Assembly: GCF_001592205.1 (NCBI RefSeq)
Contig: NZ_BCWM01000002.1
Location: forward strand, 186,001-250,000
Source: Brevundimonas vesicularis NBRC 12165
Lineage (GTDB): Bacteria; Pseudomonadota; Alphaproteobacteria; Caulobacterales; Caulobacteraceae
Length of the DNA: 64,000 nucleotides
Direction of reading: 5' to 3'
The translations under genes and the position numbers were made by a program. Below, in pieces: positions 23,374 to 38,080 of this stretch (its first letter is position 1; each line of letters opens with the position of its first letter). The notes below the pieces were generated by a model. That model saw nothing but the letters and a program-made list of their open reading frames with translations, ran no database searches and was not told where the DNA came from.

Positions 23374-23396
23374 ATCTTGCGAGTGGGTCGCAAGAT
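23374..23396. promoter_or_regulatory. Palindromic operator candidate with core TTGCGA-N5-TCGCAA
   Basis: Nine-base arms ATCTTGCGA and TCGCAAGAT flank GTGGG between the divergent DUF2256 and DUF2798 genes. The 6-5-6 core is identical to two sites upstream of the iron TonB receptor (38016-38032 and 38062-38080). A common regulator is inferred, with Fur as the first suspect. Confidence 0.55.
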
Positions 23397-30308: not shown

Positions 30309-31673
30309 TCAGTATACGTCGCGGCGGTAGCGGCCGTCTTCCAGCATGGTAAGCACCACGTCCGCTCCGAGGGCGCTTTCCAGCGCGGCATGGACGCCTT
30401 GCGACATGCCTTCCAGACTGCCGCAGACGTAGATCGCCGCGCCGCGCGCGACCCAGGCACGCAGTTCGTCGGCTGCAGCCGCGACCAGATCCTGCACATA
30501 TCGGCCGTCGCCGGCGTCGCGCGAGAAGCTCCGGTCCAGCCGCCGCAGCACGCCCGACGCCAGCCAGACCTGCAACTCCGCATCGAAGAAGGCGTCATGC
30601 GCCTGCGTGCGTTCCCCGAACAGCAGCCAGGCTCCTCCCGCGTCGGTGCGCGACTTCAAATGCGCGCGCAAACCGGCGATGCCTGTTCCGTTGCCGATCA
30701 GGATCATCGGCGTTTCGTCCGCCGGGCCGTGGAAGCTGCGGTTGGTGCGCAGGCGCATTCCAGCCTGATCGCCCAGCGAAAGATCTTGCGTCAGCCAGCC
30801 CGACGCCAGACCCGGGGCGCCGTCGGGATGGCGCATCAGGCGGATCAGGAACTCGACCCGGCCGTCCGACGGCAGGGAAGCGATAGAGTATTCGCGCGAA
30901 CCCGGCGTGACGCCATCACGCTCAGGCAGGCCGACTTCGGCGATGTCGCCCGCCGACCAGTCAGGCGCCGCGCCCACGGCCTCGAACGCCAGATGATAGG
31001 CCTCGCCGCCGGGACTGCCCGGATTGACCAAGGTGCGTTCGACCAGCCGCCAGGGGTCGTAGGCGGGCGGAGTCCAGTCGGGAGCCGTCACGCTGCCGGT
31101 GATCTGGTTGAGTTGATGCTGCCAGTGGCGGATGGCGCCGGCCTCGCCGTTGTCGACCTCGACCATGTCGAACAGGGGTTCGGCGCCCACGCGTCGCAGC
31201 CAGCCGTCCACCGCATGGCCGAAGCCGCAGAACTGATCATAGCTGCGATCGCCCAGCGCCAGCAGGCCGAAGCGCAACCCCGATAGATCCGTCGCCTCGC
31301 CCATGACCTTACGCACGAACCGAGCCGCGCTGTCGGGCGGATCCCCCTCGCCGGTCGTCGAGACGATCAGCAATGTGCGGTCCGTAAATTTCAGCGTCTG
31401 CACATCCAGATCGGCGAAAGACAGCACCCGCGCACCCAAGCAGCCATCGCCCAGAGACCGCGCCGTCATCCACGCCAGTTCCTCGGCGAAGCCCGTCTGG
31501 CTGGCGAAGGCGATCAGCACCGGTTGGCCCTCGCCTGCGCCCGCCAGGGCATCAAACCGCGCACGCGCCGCCGCCATCGCCTTGCGTTCGCGCCAGACGA
31601 CGACGGCGATCAGGGCCAGCCAAAGCGCCAAGGCCCCGACCGCCAACAGCCAGCGCTGCGGATCGGCTGTCAC
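30309..31673 (-). CDS. Membrane-anchored flavodoxin/ferredoxin-reductase-type flavoprotein
   Basis: A 454-residue diflavin reductase. One N-terminal helix (WLLAVGALALWLALIAVVVW) is followed by a flavodoxin FMN domain (about 45-185; IAFASQTGFAEELA, STTGEGDPPDSA), an FAD-binding part (REYSIASLPSDG) and an NADPH-binding part (ILIGNGTGIAGLRAHL, YVCGSLEGM). This resembles sulfite-reductase/P450-reductase flavoproteins seen in PepSY iron-reductase clusters. The GTG start overlaps the apbE stop (GTGA). It probably passes electrons to the PepSY protein or to imported ferric siderophore; this is inference. Confidence 0.87.
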   Translation of the reverse strand: MTADPQRWLLAVGALALWLALIAVVVWRERKAMAAARARFDALAGAGEGQPVLIAFASQTGFAEELAWMTARSLGDGCLGARVLSFADLDVQTLKFTDRTLLIVSTTGEGDPPDSAARFVRKVMGEATDLSGLRFGLLALGDRSYDQFCGFGHAVDGWLRRVGAEPLFDMVEVDNGEAGAIRHWQHQLNQITGSVTAPDWTPPAYDPWRLVERTLVNPGSPGGEAYHLAFEAVGAAPDWSAGDIAEVGLPERDGVTPGSREYSIASLPSDGRVEFLIRLMRHPDGAPGLASGWLTQDLSLGDQAGMRLRTNRSFHGPADETPMILIGNGTGIAGLRAHLKSRTDAGGAWLLFGERTQAHDAFFDAELQVWLASGVLRRLDRSFSRDAGDGRYVQDLVAAAADELRAWVARGAAIYVCGSLEGMSQGVHAALESALGADVVLTMLEDGRYRRDVY

Positions 31674-32776
31674 CCCGGACGATCTCCGTCGTCGTCAAGC
31701 AGGGCGGCGAAGGCTGAAGACATCCGCTCGACCGGCCCGCGCTCGGTGCGTTCGACGAAATGGGCCATCAGACCCACTGCCTCGGCGTAGTCCGGTCCGT
31801 CGAATGGTCCCATAACGGTCAGGGCCGTGGCGTAGGCGTCGGCCATCATGGCTGAGGGGTGCAGGACGGTGACCGAACTCAGGTTATTGCTGACCGGCCG
31901 ACCGGTCGATCCGTCGATGGTGTGGGGATAAAGGCGCCCCTCATGGCGGAACGCGCGGCGGTAGTCGCCGCTGGTCGCGACGGCGAGGTCGAACAGGGCC
32001 GCCACGGTGTGGGGCGCTGGCGAACCCTCGACCCGCTCGATCTCGACCCACCACGGCTGGGCGTCCGGCTTGACGCCGCGCCCTTTCAACTCGCCCCCGA
32101 TCTCGATCAGGTGCGAGGTCGCGCCCATGGCCATCAGCCGGTCGGACACGCGGTCCACCGCATGACCCTTGGCGATGCCGGAGAAGTCCAGCCTCATCCC
32201 GCCCATCTGCATCACCGCGCGCGCATCGCCGTTCAGCCGCAGCTTCTGCCAACCCGACACGGCCGCAGCCGCCGCGATCTCGTCCTCGGCCGGGACGGGC
32301 AGCAAGGCCGAGCGCGGTCCGGGCGGGCCGAACCCCCACAGATCGACCAGTGCGCCCAGGGTCGGATCGACCGCGCCGTTGGCCTCGTCACCCAGGGTCA
32401 TCGCCGCATCCAGCAGATCCCAGAACGGCTGGGACACCGCCCAGACGCCGGCCGGCGCGGTATTGAAGCGGCTGATTTCGCTGGACGGCTCCCACGGGCT
32501 GAACAGACCGACGACGGTCGCCAGTTCCTCTTCGATCGCAGACCGGATCTCCGCCTCGCCCACGCCTGGCGGGGCGATGACGCGCGCGCTCCAGGTCGTG
32601 CCCATGGTCTGACCGCCCAGCGAACGGATCAGGTCGCTGGGCGGACGGGGCGGCGCGCCTTCGATCGCGGGCACGAGGACGCGGTTGTCGGCGCGGTCGC
32701 CCAGAGGGGCGGCGTCGCCGATATTGACCGTGGGCGGGGCGGCGCGTGAACCGCGCGAGGGGGGAATGTCGGACAT
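31670..32776 (-). CDS. apbE: FAD:protein FMN transferase ApbE
   Basis: A 368-residue flavin transferase that attaches FMN to Thr/Ser of target proteins using FAD. Motifs are GGQTMGTTWSARV, DFSGIAKGHAVDRV, IEIGGELKGRG, HTIDGSTGRPVSNN and MMADAYATALTVMG. Unlike periplasmic lipoprotein ApbE, the N-terminus has no signal peptide but about 55 Pro-rich residues, so the protein may act in the cytoplasm. An internal start near the MGTT motif is a less likely alternative. It sits between the DUF4198 and flavoreductase genes. Confidence 0.9.
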   Translation of the reverse strand: MSDIPPSRGSRAAPPTVNIGDAAPLGDRADNRVLVPAIEGAPPRPPSDLIRSLGGQTMGTTWSARVIAPPGVGEAEIRSAIEEELATVVGLFSPWEPSSEISRFNTAPAGVWAVSQPFWDLLDAAMTLGDEANGAVDPTLGALVDLWGFGPPGPRSALLPVPAEDEIAAAAAVSGWQKLRLNGDARAVMQMGGMRLDFSGIAKGHAVDRVSDRLMAMGATSHLIEIGGELKGRGVKPDAQPWWVEIERVEGSPAPHTVAALFDLAVATSGDYRRAFRHEGRLYPHTIDGSTGRPVSNNLSSVTVLHPSAMMADAYATALTVMGPFDGPDYAEAVGLMAHFVERTERGPVERMSSAFAALLDDDGDRPG

Positions 32777-32786
32777 GGCCCTTCGC

Positions 32787-33587
32787 TTAGGGCAGGACTT
32801 CCATCGCCGCCACATAGCTGGCGTTGGAACCCAGCGTTTCACCCTGGCCTTCGGTGCGGACGGAGGCGTTCAGCCAATACATGCCGGCTTCCGGCCAGGT
32901 GATGGTGAAGGCGCCCTCGGCGTTGGTCTTGAGCGTCGATTCCTCGGGGTTGTCGCGGTAGCGCAGGCCGCCGCGCGCCACGGTGACGTCGATGTCCGCC
33001 GCCGGCTGGCCATTGTTCAGCAGTTTGAAGGTGGCGGGTTCGCCCACCACCAGGTCGTTCGGGTGGGTGACGGGAACCAGTTCAAGCCCCTCGCCGGTCG
33101 TCTTGAACACGGTGTCGGTCGGATTGTTCAGGGTGACGAAGGTCTCGATGCGGCTGGCGGTGCGGGTCGCCTGAACATTGGTCGCGCCCTCGGGCAGGCC
33201 CGCCGGGTAGTCCGAGGCCGCGCCGCGCCAGCGCTTCTGTTCGCCGTTCAGGGTGTAGCTGGCCATCACGCCGTTCATGACGTTGGCGATCTTGTAGGTG
33301 CCGTTCTGCGTCAGATGGGCGTCGAAGGTGGAGCGATACTGACCCTGCATGGCATGCTCGGGCTGAACCGCCGAACCGTCCGGCGCCGTGATGGTGAGGC
33401 CGGTCATCCGCATGGCGGCGTGGTCGGGATCGAACACCTTGTTGGACATGCCGGCGTCGAATCCGACCCAGGCGTCCGTGCCCGACAGGGTCGTGGCGGT
33501 GGGCGCCAGCCAGGCGCGGTGGGCCTGGGCGGCCATGGGGGCGGCCAGTGCTGCGGCCAGCGTCAGCAGGGCGATCGTCTTCTTCAT
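32787..33587 (-). CDS. DUF4198 periplasmic protein
   Basis: A 266-residue exported protein with a signal peptide (MKKTIALLTLAAALAAPMAAQA) followed at once by HRAWLAP, the typical N-terminal His of DUF4198 proteins. Inner repeats resemble beta-sandwich domains (FVTLNNPTDTVFK, ITWPEAGMYWLNASV). AAGGA is 8 bases before ATG 33587; an ATG at 33593 lies in frame but too close to it. Family members occur in metal and iron uptake operons. A periplasmic metal- or siderophore-handling role is inferred. Confidence 0.85.
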   Translation of the reverse strand: MKKTIALLTLAAALAAPMAAQAHRAWLAPTATTLSGTDAWVGFDAGMSNKVFDPDHAAMRMTGLTITAPDGSAVQPEHAMQGQYRSTFDAHLTQNGTYKIANVMNGVMASYTLNGEQKRWRGAASDYPAGLPEGATNVQATRTASRIETFVTLNNPTDTVFKTTGEGLELVPVTHPNDLVVGEPATFKLLNNGQPAADIDVTVARGGLRYRDNPEESTLKTNAEGAFTITWPEAGMYWLNASVRTEGQGETLGSNASYVAAMEVLP

Positions 33588-33598
33588 GGTCATGATCC

Positions 33599-34111
33599 TT
33601 AGCGAGAGACGGCGACGCGCACGGCGCCCAGTTCGGTGGAGCCGGTCCCGGCGCCGGTGTTGGCCGCGCCCCAGCGGAAGGGCACGCGCACGACTTCGCG
33701 TCCGCCCAGTTCGCGGGCCGCCTCGACGACAATGTTGTACTGGCCGGGCTGAAGGTTGCGCAGCCGGGCGGCGGGCACGGTGACGGTCTGGCGGCCCGGC
33801 GCGCGCGTGGCGCCGGATACGCCGTCGGCTGGCAGGCTCATGGCCCGGCCACCCTTGCGCCACCAGGTGCGCAAATCCTTCAGCCAGTCCTTGCCGTCGC
33901 CCTCGTTGTTGCGGGTCTGCTGATACCAGACCGCCAGGGTGCGTTCGGCGGACTGGTCCGGCTTTTCGATCCACACCGCGACATAGGGGCGATGATACGA
34001 GGCGGTGTTCAGACGCGGAATCTCGACCGACACCGTCAGGTCGGCGGCCATGGCGGGCGCAGCGGCGGCGGCCAGGCCGACGGTGGTGATGACGACGGGA
34101 AGAAGGCGCAT
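33599..34111 (-). CDS. DUF2271 periplasmic protein
   Basis: A 170-residue exported protein with a signal peptide ending near AMAADL. The mature domain has the DUF2271 landmarks PYVAVWIEKPDQS, RTLAVWYQQ, WWRKGGRAMSLPADGVSGAT and GQYNIVVEAARELGGRE. It lies between the PepSY and DUF4198 genes with gaps of 11 bases on both sides, so it is part of the iron-reductase operon. Its exact biochemical role is unknown. Confidence 0.85.
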   Translation of the reverse strand: MRLLPVVITTVGLAAAAAPAMAADLTVSVEIPRLNTASYHRPYVAVWIEKPDQSAERTLAVWYQQTRNNEGDGKDWLKDLRTWWRKGGRAMSLPADGVSGATRAPGRQTVTVPAARLRNLQPGQYNIVVEAARELGGREVVRVPFRWGAANTGAGTGSTELGAVRVAVSR

Positions 34112-34122
34112 CGGAAAACTCG

Positions 34123-34800
34123 TCAGTGAATGAAGATCAGGGCGATGACGACGGGGATCAGCAGGCCCAGAGCCGCCAGCGGCCAGGTCGAGGGCCGACC
34201 TTTGGCGTGCAGGAGCATCAGACCTAGGCCCGTGACGGCGAAGATGACGCAGGCCGCCGCGAACACGTCGATGAACCAGAACCAGACCACGCCGGCGTTG
34301 CGACCCTTGTGCAGGTCGTTGAGGTAGGCGATCCAGCCGCGCGTCGTCTTCTCGTGCAGGGTCTCGCCGGTCGAACGGTCGATAGTGAGCCATCCGTCGC
34401 CGCCAGGCATGGCCAAGGCGACATAGACCTCTTGCGCCGTTGTCTCGGTCGGCTTGCCGGCGATCTCGACCTTGAGCGCCTCGGACGCCCAGCGCGCGAC
34501 AGCCTCAGGGACAGGATCGGTCGTCTCCTGCGGGAAGCTGGCCAGCCGCTGCAGCAGGGGCGCCGGCAAGGTCGCGGTCTGTTCGACCGTGACCGGATCG
34601 CCGGGGATCGAGGCCGCGTGGTTCAGGGTGATGCCGGTGACCGCGAACAGGATCATGCCGACCAGGCTGACCGCCGCGGAAATCCAGTGCCAGCTATGCA
34701 GCTGCTTCAGCCAGAACGACCGTGCGCCGTTCAGCGCCGCCTTGGGTTTGGGCCCCTTGGCTGCGGTTTCGGCCTGACGCTGTGTGGCGAGTTCGGTCAC
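34123..34800 (-). CDS. PepSY-associated membrane protein (putative ferric/siderophore reductase)
   Basis: A 225-residue membrane protein with three hydrophobic segments: HWISAAVSLVGMILFAVTGI, FWFIDVFAAACVIFAVTGLG and WPLAALGLLIPVVIALIFIH. Conserved His near the first and second helices (LHSWHW, LNDLHKG) are candidate haem ligands. The periplasmic loop has the PepSY-like TGETLHEKTTRG. The start is GTG with a weak ribosome site. It heads the sub-operon pepSY-DUF2271-DUF4198-apbE-flavoreductase, and a TTGCGA-type palindrome lies 19 bases upstream. Confidence 0.83.
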   Translation of the reverse strand: MTELATQRQAETAAKGPKPKAALNGARSFWLKQLHSWHWISAAVSLVGMILFAVTGITLNHAASIPGDPVTVEQTATLPAPLLQRLASFPQETTDPVPEAVARWASEALKVEIAGKPTETTAQEVYVALAMPGGDGWLTIDRSTGETLHEKTTRGWIAYLNDLHKGRNAGVVWFWFIDVFAAACVIFAVTGLGLMLLHAKGRPSTWPLAALGLLIPVVIALIFIH

Positions 34801-34818: not shown

Positions 34819-34835
34819 TTGCGAACGGGTTGCAA
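34819..34835. promoter_or_regulatory. TTGCGA-N5-TTGCAA site upstream of the PepSY operon
   Basis: This sequence matches the TTGCGA-N5-TCGCAA palindrome of the TonB-receptor promoter in 11 of 12 fixed positions. It lies 19 bases upstream of the GTG start at 34800. An iron-responsive operator is inferred. Confidence 0.5.
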
Positions 34836-34867: not shown

Positions 34868-35554
34868 TCAGACCTCGGTCCAGCGCCGCAGCAGATTGTG
34901 ATAGACGCCGGTCAATTCGATCACCGCCTGATCCTTCGGTCCCCTCTCGGTCGCCACGCGCTGGGTGGCGATGTCCAGACGGAACAGGGTCTCGCGATCG
35001 GAGTCGTCGCGGACCAGGCTCTGCATCCACATGAAGGACGACACCCGCGCGCCACGCGTCACCGGCGTGACCCGGTGCAGGCTCTTGGAGGGATAGAGGA
35101 CCAGATCGCCAGCCGGCAGCTTGATCGCCTGGGACCCGTACATCTCCTCGATGATCAGTTCGCCGCCGTCGTAGTCCTCGGGCTCGGACAGGAACAAGGT
35201 CGCCGACAGGTCGCTGCGAATGCGGATCGCCCCGCCGTTGCGGGACTGGCGGATGGCGTTGTCGACGTGCAGTCCGAACTCACCCCCGGCTTCGTAGCGG
35301 TTGAACAAGGGCGGAAAGATCGTGTGCGGAAGGGCCGCCGCCACAAACATCGGATTGGCGTTCAGAGCCTGGACGACGAGGGCCGAGACCTCCTTCGCCA
35401 CGTCCGACTCTTCGGGCAGTTGAAGGTTCTTCTTCGCCGTCGCCGATTGATGGCCCGAGGTGGCGTTGCCGTCCGCCCACGGCCCGGCGTCCAGCCGCGC
35501 GCGCAAAGCCTTGACCTCGGCCTTGGAGAAGACTTCCGGAATCTGCAGCAGCAC
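34868..35554 (-). CDS. piuC: Fe(II)/2-oxoglutarate-dependent PKHD-type hydroxylase (PiuC/YbiX family)
   Basis: A 228-residue dioxygenase. Iron ligands are in [11 protein letters not shown] (HxD) and [13 protein letters not shown] (distal His), with the Arg that would bind 2-oxoglutarate in the same segment. PiuC/YbiX genes typically follow a catecholate TonB receptor, as here. The GTG start lies 75 bases after the receptor stop. A role in siderophore modification or in receptor-linked iron release is suspected from the family, but the substrate is not established. Confidence 0.9.
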
Positions 35555-35629: not shown

Positions 35630-37990
35630 TTAGAAGCGCAGGTTCAGGGCCAGGATGGCCTGGCGACCTGCGGCCACGTCGGCGTGGTGAACGCCGTTGG
35701 TGCGCATGATGTATTCCTCGTCCGTCGCATTCTTGACGTTCAGCTGAAGCGTCGCGCGATCCGTCAGATCATAGGCGGCGAAGGCGTCCACGCGGGTCCA
35801 TTCGGGCGCATAGATGCGGTTGTTCCCGCCGCCCGCGCCGCCCTGGTTCCCGCCCAGAGATTTGGACGTGTAGTAGACGCCGCCGCCGACCGTCAGCCGG
35901 GGCAGGACGCGATAGGTGGTGAACAGGCTCGCGCTGTGCTTGGGCGTATTGGCCAGCGGCAGGCCTTGCAGCGGATTGACCGTTGCGACCGGCGTCGTGC
36001 CCGACACGACCACGGCCGCCTTGGTCAGTTCGGAGTCCATGTAGGTATAGCCGCCGAACACGGTCCACTTCGGCGTGATGCTGCCCGACACGCCCAGCTC
36101 GAAGCCGTTGACCTCGACCTCGCCCTCCTGACGGAAGACATTGGGCTCAACCAGGATCAGCGCGTTCTTGCGGGTCAGATGGAAGGCGGCCGCCGACAGG
36201 GCGAGACGGTCGTTCAGGACATTGGCCTTGGCGCCGATCTCGAAGCTTTCGGTGTCTTCCGGATCCAGAACGGTGTTGGCGACGCCATCGACCGTGCCCG
36301 TGCCGCCCGAGGCGTTCTGATCGCCCGCCGAGATGGTCGGCGGCGTCGAAGAGGTGGACCAGGACGCATAGACGCTGCTGTTCTGCGTCGGCTTGAACAC
36401 CAGACCGACCTGATAGTTGGTGAACTCCCAGGTCTGTTCCGGAACGGCCGTATAGCCCGTTGTCGTCCAGACGCCGGCCGACTGGGTCGCGGTCGCATTC
36501 ACGCCCTTGACCGAATACTGGTCCCAGCGAACGCCCAGGTTCAGGATCAGTCGCTCGGTCAGGGTGATGCTGTCGTTCGCATAGACGCCGATGGCCTCGG
36601 TCGTGTTCGAGCTGGTCGGGCCGCGGTTGATCACGCCGGTCCAGGCGTCGTCGGAATTGGGATTGTAGACCGGGGTGCAGTCGCCGGCGCCCAGCGCCCC
36701 GGCGGCGGTCGGATACGACCCGGTGACGGTCGTCAGACCGGTCGGACAGGCCGAGCCCGAAGTGGTGTAGGTCGAATAGGAGGCGTTCTTGTTGTGCTCG
36801 CGCGACAGCTCCACGCCGACGTCATAGCTGTGCTTGATCGAGCCGGTGGCGAACTGTCCGAAGACATCGGTCACATTGGCCAGGGTGGTGACCGGGTTCC
36901 AACGGGTCTTGGTGCCCCGCTTCATCCAGTAGGTGCCGTCCGCCGCCCGTCCGACATAGCCGCCGTCGCCGGGGTTGGTGACGATGTAGTCATTCAGCGT
37001 CTGCGAATAGCGGCTCACGTTGCGGATCGTGGCGAAATCGTTGAGGCGATGCTCGGCCTTGAAGGTGAACGCATCGACCTCATTGGTCAGGTAGTCGCGC
37101 GCCTTCAGCCCATAGAAGCTATCATAGGGCACATCCAGAACGCCGCTGTCGGTTGTGCGCGACTGGATCTTGGTGAACAGCGGGATGCCGTAGTCGGGCA
37201 TCTGGTCGCTCGTCAGGTGGTAGTAGCTGAAGACCATCGACGACGGCGTGCCCAGGCCGGCGCCCAGGCTGATGGCCGCACCCCATTTGTCGTAATCGAC
37301 GGCGTCGCGGCCGGGCACGTCGCCCTGGGCGCCCATCAGGTTGATGCGCAGGGCGGCGGTCTCGCCCAGCGGCAGGTTCGCGTCGACCGTGCCGCGCAGA
37401 TAGCCGTCGGTGCCCGCGCCCGCGCTGACATTGGTGAACGCGTTCAGCTTTGGCGATTTGGAGGCCAGGTTGATACTACCGCCGCCCGAACCGCGTCCCG
37501 AATAGACGGCGTCCGGCCCCTTGATGACCTCGACCTGTTCCAGGTTGAAGACCTCCCGCTGCTGGCCGCCCGTGTCGCGAATGCCGTCTACGAAGATGTT
37601 GTTGCCCGACGATTGCCCCCGGATGAAGGGGCGATCGGCCAGGGGCTGACCGCCCTCGCCCGCCCCGAAGGTGATGCCGGGGGAGTTGGCCAGCAGGTCC
37701 TGCAAGGACGAGGCCGAGGTCTGTTCGATAATGGCCTGGGGGATGACCGTCACGGCGCGCGGGGTATCCACCAAGGGCGCGACGAACTCGGGACTGACGG
37801 GCGCCGGCTTCTTGAACTGACCGTTGACATCGATCGTGCCCAGATTGGCGGGCTGGGACTGGTCAGCCGTGACGACCACGCCGTCCTCGGCGGTCACGTC
37901 AGCGGCGATGGCGGGAGCGGCGACCAGCATGCCGGCGGCGCTGGAGGCGAACAGAAGCGAGCGGAGCGCGGCGGCGCGGGATTCGGACAT
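35630..37990 (-). CDS. TonB-dependent siderophore receptor (Fiu/PiuA-like)
   Basis: A 786-residue outer-membrane receptor with a signal peptide ending near APAIAAD. The plug domain starts TPRAVTVIPQAIIEQ and contains RPFIRGQSSGNNIFVDGIRD and EVIKGPDAVYSGRGSGGGSIN, the siderophore-receptor signature. The 22-strand barrel ends in LALNLRF. The piuC and PepSY neighbours suggest catecholate-type ferric siderophores. ATG 37990 was chosen over an upstream in-frame start because the signal peptide begins there. Two palindromes with core TTGCGA-N5-TCGCAA lie within 90 bases upstream. Confidence 0.93.
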   Translation of the reverse strand: MSESRAAALRSLLFASSAAGMLVAAPAIAADVTAEDGVVVTADQSQPANLGTIDVNGQFKKPAPVSPEFVAPLVDTPRAVTVIPQAIIEQTSASSLQDLLANSPGITFGAGEGGQPLADRPFIRGQSSGNNIFVDGIRDTGGQQREVFNLEQVEVIKGPDAVYSGRGSGGGSINLASKSPKLNAFTNVSAGAGTDGYLRGTVDANLPLGETAALRINLMGAQGDVPGRDAVDYDKWGAAISLGAGLGTPSSMVFSYYHLTSDQMPDYGIPLFTKIQSRTTDSGVLDVPYDSFYGLKARDYLTNEVDAFTFKAEHRLNDFATIRNVSRYSQTLNDYIVTNPGDGGYVGRAADGTYWMKRGTKTRWNPVTTLANVTDVFGQFATGSIKHSYDVGVELSREHNKNASYSTYTTSGSACPTGLTTVTGSYPTAAGALGAGDCTPVYNPNSDDAWTGVINRGPTSSNTTEAIGVYANDSITLTERLILNLGVRWDQYSVKGVNATATQSAGVWTTTGYTAVPEQTWEFTNYQVGLVFKPTQNSSVYASWSTSSTPPTISAGDQNASGGTGTVDGVANTVLDPEDTESFEIGAKANVLNDRLALSAAAFHLTRKNALILVEPNVFRQEGEVEVNGFELGVSGSITPKWTVFGGYTYMDSELTKAAVVVSGTTPVATVNPLQGLPLANTPKHSASLFTTYRVLPRLTVGGGVYYTSKSLGGNQGGAGGGNNRIYAPEWTRVDAFAAYDLTDRATLQLNVKNATDEEYIMRTNGVHHADVAAGRQAILALNLRF

Positions 37991-38015: not shown

Positions 38016-38032
38016 TTGCGATGCGCTCGCAA
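38016..38032. promoter_or_regulatory. Palindrome TTGCGA-TGCGC-TCGCAA upstream of TonB receptor
   Basis: A perfect 6-5-6 inverted repeat 26 bases upstream of the receptor ATG, in the likely promoter or leader. It shares its fixed bases with sites at 38062-38080 and 23374-23396. A Fur-type iron repressor is the likely ligand; this is inference. Confidence 0.6.
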
Positions 38033-38061: not shown

Positions 38062-38080
38062 ATTGCGAACAAATCGCAAT
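38062..38080. promoter_or_regulatory. Palindrome ATTGCGA-ACAAA-TCGCAAT upstream of TonB receptor
   Basis: A perfect inverted repeat of 7-base arms, 19 bases in total, the usual length of a Fur box. It is the second copy of the motif upstream of the receptor and ends 6 bases before the stop codon of the Anbu gene. Confidence 0.6.

Follow-up and report, generated by a model that had tools for sequence, protein, structure and literature searches.

A PepSY-like flavinylation operon in Brevundimonas vesicularis with an exported-looking DUF2271 protein and a linked ApbE that lacks a recognisable export signal

Described systems and the Brevundimonas operon

The flavinylated DUF2271 protein is an idea that has been in print, for the family, since 2021 (PMC8238504). 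When the DUF2271 protein of Amantichitinum ursilacus was co-expressed with its ApbE it was flavinylated, and a Thr-to-Ala variant lost the modification (PMC8238504). Of 3220 PepSY-like clusters counted in the same study, 2833 encode a DUF2271 protein and 1500 a DUF4198 protein, and iron reduction was proposed as their function. Two bis-His haem sites have been described in a PepSY-like protein of Pseudomonas, and the same paper offers an AlphaFold prediction for a DUF2271 protein (PMC11334425). DUF2271 is not mentioned in the part of the Brucella flavoproteome paper that was covered (PMC9045290).

The operon described here lies in a stretch of 64,000 nucleotides of Brevundimonas vesicularis NBRC 12165 (contig NZ_BCWM01000002.1, positions 186,001 to 250,000), hereafter the window; the host genome measures 3.36 Mb. 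On the minus strand, the gene order is receptor, PiuC, PepSY, DUF2271, DUF4198, ApbE and a CysJ-like reductase, with the following features.

35630..37990, minus strand: Fiu/CciT-like TonB-dependent siderophore receptor; probable start ATG 37990; NF007349 (Fiu) 420.9 bits, below its cut-off; TIGR01783 above cut-off
34868..35554, minus strand: PiuC/CciO-type Fe(II) dioxygenase; NF003973 351.8 bits, above cut-off
34123..34800, minus strand: PepSY_TM_like_2 membrane protein; PF16357 257.9 bits; conserved H38, H61, H164 and H198
33599..34111, minus strand: DUF2271 protein, 170 aa; PF10029 156.8 bits; stop codon within the coordinates
33806..33826, minus strand: flavinylation motif DGVSGAT, DUF2271 residues 96-102; predicted FMN acceptor Thr102, codon 33806-33808
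32787..33593, minus strand: DUF4198 protein; PF10670 189.8 bits; N-terminal leader by eye; probable start 33593
31670..32776, minus strand: ApbE flavin transferase; PF02424 255.7 bits; probable start ATG 32776, GTG 32842 also open
30309..31673, minus strand: CysJ-like flavodoxin/NAD(P)H reductase; PF00258 and PF00175; TIGR01931 205.6 bits, below its cut-off

The adjacent genes for PepSY (PF16357), DUF2271, DUF4198 and ApbE, each over its cut-off, reproduce the published PepSY-like flavinylation set, in which PF16357 or PF03929 is accompanied by the other three (PMC8238504). The operon is thus an ordinary, well-explained member of that system and its Brevundimonas counterpart. The same neighbourhood recurs in relatives: around 225 stand-alone DUF2271 genes, PepSY occurs in 214 stretches, DUF4198 in 211, ApbE in 184, the CysJ-like reductase in 138, the receptor in 124 and PiuC in 78.

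A close counterpart is in Caulobacter crescentus, where CC_3059-CC_3063 (CCNA_03155-03159) encode the same five products in identical order, namely a PepSY membrane protein labelled 'Transporter', DUF2271, DUF4198, ApbE and a sulfite-reductase-like flavoprotein (PMC3751524). These genes are iron-responsive, and the table in which they are listed gives them two columns of values between 12 and 51 (PMC3751524). Genes of this operon rise upon deletion of cciT or cciO, and cells with insertions in them are less fit under EDTA (PMC11870441). The two organisms differ in arrangement: in the window the PiuC and Fiu-like receptor genes precede the five on the same strand, whereas the Caulobacter cciT-cciO pair (CCNA_00028-00027) forms a separate locus. 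The A. ursilacus DUF2271 protein shares with that of the window its Pfam family, a motif ending in Thr and an ApbE in the cluster (PMC8238504). The PepSY siderophore reductases FoxB and HiuB, and also VciB, resemble the window PepSY in being membrane proteins with conserved His residues and a proposed electron transfer to ferric iron. The texts covered, however, name no flavinylated partner of FoxB or HiuB, and VciB is said to be unassociated with flavinylation components, whereas the window PepSY has a predicted partner of this kind in DUF2271.

Flavinylation motif of DUF2271 and its conservation

A first-pass annotation had assigned 33599..34111 to a minus-strand DUF2271 gene two genes upstream of apbE, and both points hold. 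The PF10029 match spans residues 25-162 of the 170 and lies above the Pfam gathering cut-off (156.8 bits against a cut-off of 27.3), and apbE follows two genes downstream in the same orientation, with DUF4198 between. The ApbE-type motif noticed in that annotation is present as well: DGVSGAT at residues 96-102 satisfies D-x-x-[ST]-G-A-[ST]. Its proposal that FMN sits on the Ser needs correction, because FMN attaches to the final residue of the motif (PMC12052999), which makes Thr102 the predicted acceptor. In 200,000 shuffles of the mature protein, the pattern first suggested, with its last place widened to [ST], arose in 0.15%, and D..[ST]GAT in 0.07%. A chance origin of the motif is ruled out by these shuffle rates together with the invariance of the motif in homologues. 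A second motif-bearing protein within the operon was also considered, but the remaining six proteins contain no D..[ST][GS][AP][ST].

A genome-wide search returned one ApbE and one DUF2271 protein, and zero matches to FMN_bind or DUF3570. DUF2271 is therefore most likely the target of this ApbE, being the only candidate found in a search that covered three families and the operon proteins. By analogy with the homologue for which the modification has been published, we infer covalent FMN on the terminal Thr of the window protein. The earlier suggestion that DUF2271 may be a flavinylated electron carrier gains from both lines: a homologue is flavinylated in print (PMC8238504), and the genome's sole ApbE adjoins its sole DUF2271. 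The AlphaFold model of the window protein has a mean pLDDT of 77.5 but is weak near the motif, with a mean of 60 over residues 91-100. A fold search with this model gave no PDB match at E <= 0.001, and weak matches to FlgD profiles carry no weight.

The conservation of the motif was followed in 261 stretches, an unbalanced sample made up of the window, 120 places from a family and phylum survey, 80 best matches to the window protein and 60 hand-picked from three surveys. A profile caught 250 DUF2271 proteins in 249 of them, or 247 distinct sequences with three identical ones counted once; 183 are paired with a linked ApbE, 22 are fused to one and 42 are unpaired, among them L180, where the ApbE match stops short of the column used for pairing. 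The 12 stretches missed by the profile, 10 of which hold PF10029 members over cut-off, stand outside all counts.

In an alignment of 28 homologues, D96 and T102 do not vary; in a second set (n=38) T102 is invariant and D96 is kept in at least 90%. All 225 stand-alone proteins caught by the profile have S or T at the acceptor position (T in 216), the first D is found in 202, and [ST]GA[ST] in 124. The 183 paired proteins likewise all carry an S or T acceptor; 101 of them have [ST]GA[ST], and 95 have the complete D..[ST]GA[ST]. Even within the genus the core varies, as 24 Brevundimonas proteins have SSAT (12), SGPT (6), SGAT (5) or TGPT (1). From these three sets of counts it follows that the acceptor residue is conserved and the G-A core is not, so that the motif is looser than the published one. 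Conservation next to apbE, on which the first annotation had staked its proposal, thus holds for the acceptor (183/183) and fails for the strict pattern (95/183). Many proteins, such as those with SGPT or SSAT, would escape a search that looked for ApbE targets only through [ST]GA[ST].

Two groups depart further from the window protein. The ApbE-DUF2271 fusions (22 sequences in L062, L064, L066-L077, L079, L152, L154, L155 and L157-L159) have an altered motif, [RKH]-P-[TS], in 15 of 22, and the catalytic His of ApbE is kept in only 11 of 22; it is kept in 183 of 183 paired ApbEs. These fusions may work without flavinylation or with a different one. A divergent group (L160-L163 and L167-L169) has a linked ApbE and the motif [DN]G[IVL][ST]GASVG. 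None of its seven stretches has a PepSY match, and its electron donor is likely to be something other than PepSY.

Electron path and regulation

The window PepSY has four histidines whose conservation among 175 proteins is high (H38 in 175, H61 in 170, H164 in 175 and H198 in 158). By eye, they flank two hydrophobic stretches on either side, the placement that one would expect of two bis-His haems, and the protein is probably a di-haem electron conduit. No solved chain was matched by its sequence at E <= 1. The CysJ-like reductase shows an N-terminal membrane anchor by eye and is the probable cytosolic electron donor. Direct transfer from PepSY to DUF2271 is supported because a PepSY-DUF2271 fusion has been noted in Alteromonas (PMC7190382).

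In the mechanism that we propose, the membrane-anchored reductase would draw electrons from cytosolic NAD(P)H, and PepSY would carry them over the inner membrane via two histidine-ligated haems. DUF2271 would act as a periplasmic electron shuttle, its Thr102 carrying a covalent FMN attached by the ApbE from two genes downstream, and would pass the electrons to ferric iron that the Fiu-like receptor imports, so that Fe(II) is released. A ferric siderophore that enters through this receptor is the probable substrate, to which DUF2271 would deliver the electrons. For the window, we infer the haem binding, the order of the carriers and the ferric substrate; taken as a whole, the path from reductase through PepSY and DUF2271-FMN to ferric iron is an explanation in which we have high confidence.

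A palindrome recurs upstream of these genes, at the following places.

34819..34835, no strand: TTGCGANNNNNTCGCAA palindrome, one mismatch, 19 bp ahead of the PepSY start
38016-38032 and 38063-38079, no strand: two perfect TTGCGANNNNNTCGCAA palindromes, upstream of the receptor gene

Copies without mismatch number five in the genome, three of them within the window and two of these upstream of the receptor. At one mismatch the genome has 9, against 2 for a reversed control, and at two mismatches the window has 4, against 3.5 expected by chance. In 24 Brevundimonas stretches, sites with up to two mismatches precede 14 of 24 PepSY genes and 8 of 36 receptor genes, compared with 181 of 4800 random windows. 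The palindrome is a possible operator for an iron regulator and, by analogy with Caulobacter, Fur would be the likely one. A copy at 23377-23393 lies near an rpoD-like gene, and the remaining two perfect copies in the genome are close to genes named by eye as Rieske-type and cytochrome oxidase subunit II-like.

Compartment of the transferase and its target

The window DUF2271 protein begins with a Sec-type signal peptide, MRLLPVVITTVGLAAAAAPAMA/ADL, with a cut after A22 by eye. The window ApbE starts with MSDIPPSRGSRAAPPTVNIGDAAPLGDRADNRVLVP if ATG 32776 is its start, and neither from this codon nor from GTG 32842 is there a signal peptide or a hydrophobic stretch ahead of the domain. Its catalytic triad is complete (S291, H307 and D335 in 390-aa numbering) and has the spacing of S241-H257-D285 in Vc_ApbE (PMC12052999). 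A home-made leader measure, which is not SignalP, gives 2.27 for DUF2271 and no leader for ApbE. It takes the best 10-residue uncharged segment shortly after the start codon, with a cut-off of 1.4, and is the third form that was used. The first form separated poorly, with a DUF2271 median of 1.89 and a PiuC 95th percentile of 1.93, and with 11 of 183 linked ApbEs at 1.9 or more. The second was badly anchored for DUF2271, 74% of which passed at 1.4, alongside 92% of DUF4198 proteins and 20 of 183 linked ApbEs. The PiuC and unlinked-ApbE controls given below come from the second form, and the pair and fusion counts from the third.

For 21 of the 183 pairs the reported measure had no anchor, and these were dropped; by eye, 20 of their ApbE N-termini have no leader and that of L250 is doubtful, while a DUF2271 leader is visible in 12 and the other 9 lie beyond the part viewed. 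In the 162 anchored pairs, DUF2271 passes the cut-off in all 162 and ApbE in 15, seven of which have convincing lipoprotein or Sec leaders by eye. This leaves 147 pairs in which DUF2271 looks exported and its ApbE has no leader. The cytosolic control PiuC passes in 0 of 80 cases in the earlier form of the measure. Among the fusions 20 of 22 pass, 19 of them convincingly by eye (one of the two in L073 is not convincing); those that do not pass are L079, cut by a contig end, and L070, which has no leader. Twenty genomes were tested from those behind the 42 unpaired DUF2271 sequences, and all 20 have an ApbE outside the stretch. A five-residue pattern, R-[VIAT]-[LAFVI]-[VIL]-[PS], occurs in 109 of 183 linked ApbEs, at a median of 21 residues before the domain, and in 9 of 915 control slices; in the window ApbE it lies at 32669-32683, where a leader would be expected.

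Because the linked ApbE has no leader and its target has one, the cytosol seems to be where transferase and substrate meet, short of another export route for ApbE. This arrangement points to a flavin that is attached in the cytosol, ahead of Sec export. In the fuller version of this idea, the linked ApbE of these widespread iron-reduction operons would be a cytosolic enzyme that loads FMN from cytosolic FAD onto the unfolded DUF2271 precursor, which would then pass through Sec with its flavin attached; we put it forward tentatively, as a reading whose chances fall a little short of even. Cytosolic ApbEs are known, and those named in a review serve targets that stay inside (PMC12052999). The enzyme for the soluble fumarate reductase of Klebsiella pneumoniae is like the window ApbE in having no signal peptide, but its target remains in the cytosol, whereas the window target has a Sec signal peptide (PMC12052999). 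Export of pre-loaded DUF2271 by the Tat pathway was considered and rejected, as only 1 of 162 leaders has a Tat-like pattern (RR occurs within 50 residues in 40 of 162), and so was a remote periplasmic ApbE serving the window DUF2271, since the genome has one ApbE; for the 20 tested genomes with unpaired DUF2271 sequences a remote ApbE does hold.

The main competitor to cytosolic loading is that the linked ApbE is periplasmic after all, leaving the cytosol without a recognisable signal or starting at a codon whose leader the measure missed. Classic ApbEs are periplasmic lipoproteins, and one that was confined to the cytosol did not complement a knock-out, so a periplasmic location was needed (PMC12052999). 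Seven linked ApbEs do have convincing leaders by eye (L125, L238, L303, L306, L308, L309 and L314), and the methods of PMC8238504 call the cognate apbE construct of A. ursilacus 'signal peptide-truncated', whereas the window ApbE has no visible signal peptide. We nevertheless judge a periplasmic location unlikely for the linked enzymes, given the 147 of 162 pairs above. The distance from the DUF4198 stop codon to the ApbE domain, whose median over 163 cases is 96 nt (the window has 164), leaves little space for a leader and linker. In its earlier form the measure found a strong leader, at 2.27 or more, in the best-scoring unlinked ApbE locus of 19 of 20 genomes, the exception being L357. The mismatch in compartment speaks against the classic periplasmic arrangement and not against flavinylation itself.

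Flavinylation itself would be in question if DUF2271 were an unmodified periplasmic scaffold or a metal or siderophore binder with an Ig-like fold, its motif loop serving another purpose. The family has been assigned to a superfamily whose fold is an Ig-like beta-sandwich (PMC7190382), a T-[RK] pair often persists where G and A are lost (for example in fusions with R-P-T), and among the 10 divergent PF10029 members missed by the profile the regex [DNE]G[VIL][ST]GA[ST] finds a motif in 5 and none in 5. All the same, a homologue is flavinylated at the motif Thr (PMC8238504), and the genome retains one triad-bearing ApbE with DUF2271 as the only candidate target found in three families and the operon; we regard the unmodified protein as highly improbable. 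A different idea accepts flavinylation and reads the drift of the motif from SGAT to SGPT or SSAT as half of a specificity code, matched by a change at Y294 of ApbE, three residues after the triad Ser (codon 31961-31963 in the window). Tyr fills this column in 96 of the 101 ApbEs whose partner has a G-A core against 17 of the 82 whose partner has another core, in 0 of 21 readable fusions, and in all five solved ApbE chains listed, out of 14 matches. Changing G to A or A to V in a canonical target reduced flavinylation to about half (PMC12052999). This strong raw association is not significant once phylogeny is taken into account: 8 independent pairs gave on average 2.5 for, 0.0 against and 5.4 showing no difference, with a median p of 0.25 in a sign test. 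Among 285 columns this one ranks 8th, and in a smaller set used earlier 4.3 of 9 pairs were for (p 0.125). The covariation is unproven, and a code of this kind is possible but on balance doubtful.

Cytosolic loading of an exported target is not stated in the text passages of the flavinylation literature covered, and PMC8238504 may already show such linked ApbEs as unsecreted. The feature that these passages do not describe is a linked ApbE without an evident export signal for an exported target; the flavinylated DUF2271 protein itself was already known. If loading before export is true, DUF2271 would be a covalent flavoprotein that matures before it passes through Sec, and no FAD exporter would be needed. 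Such a route, if real, would matter for how cells provide their periplasmic flavoproteins with FAD and for the cargo that the Sec channel accepts.
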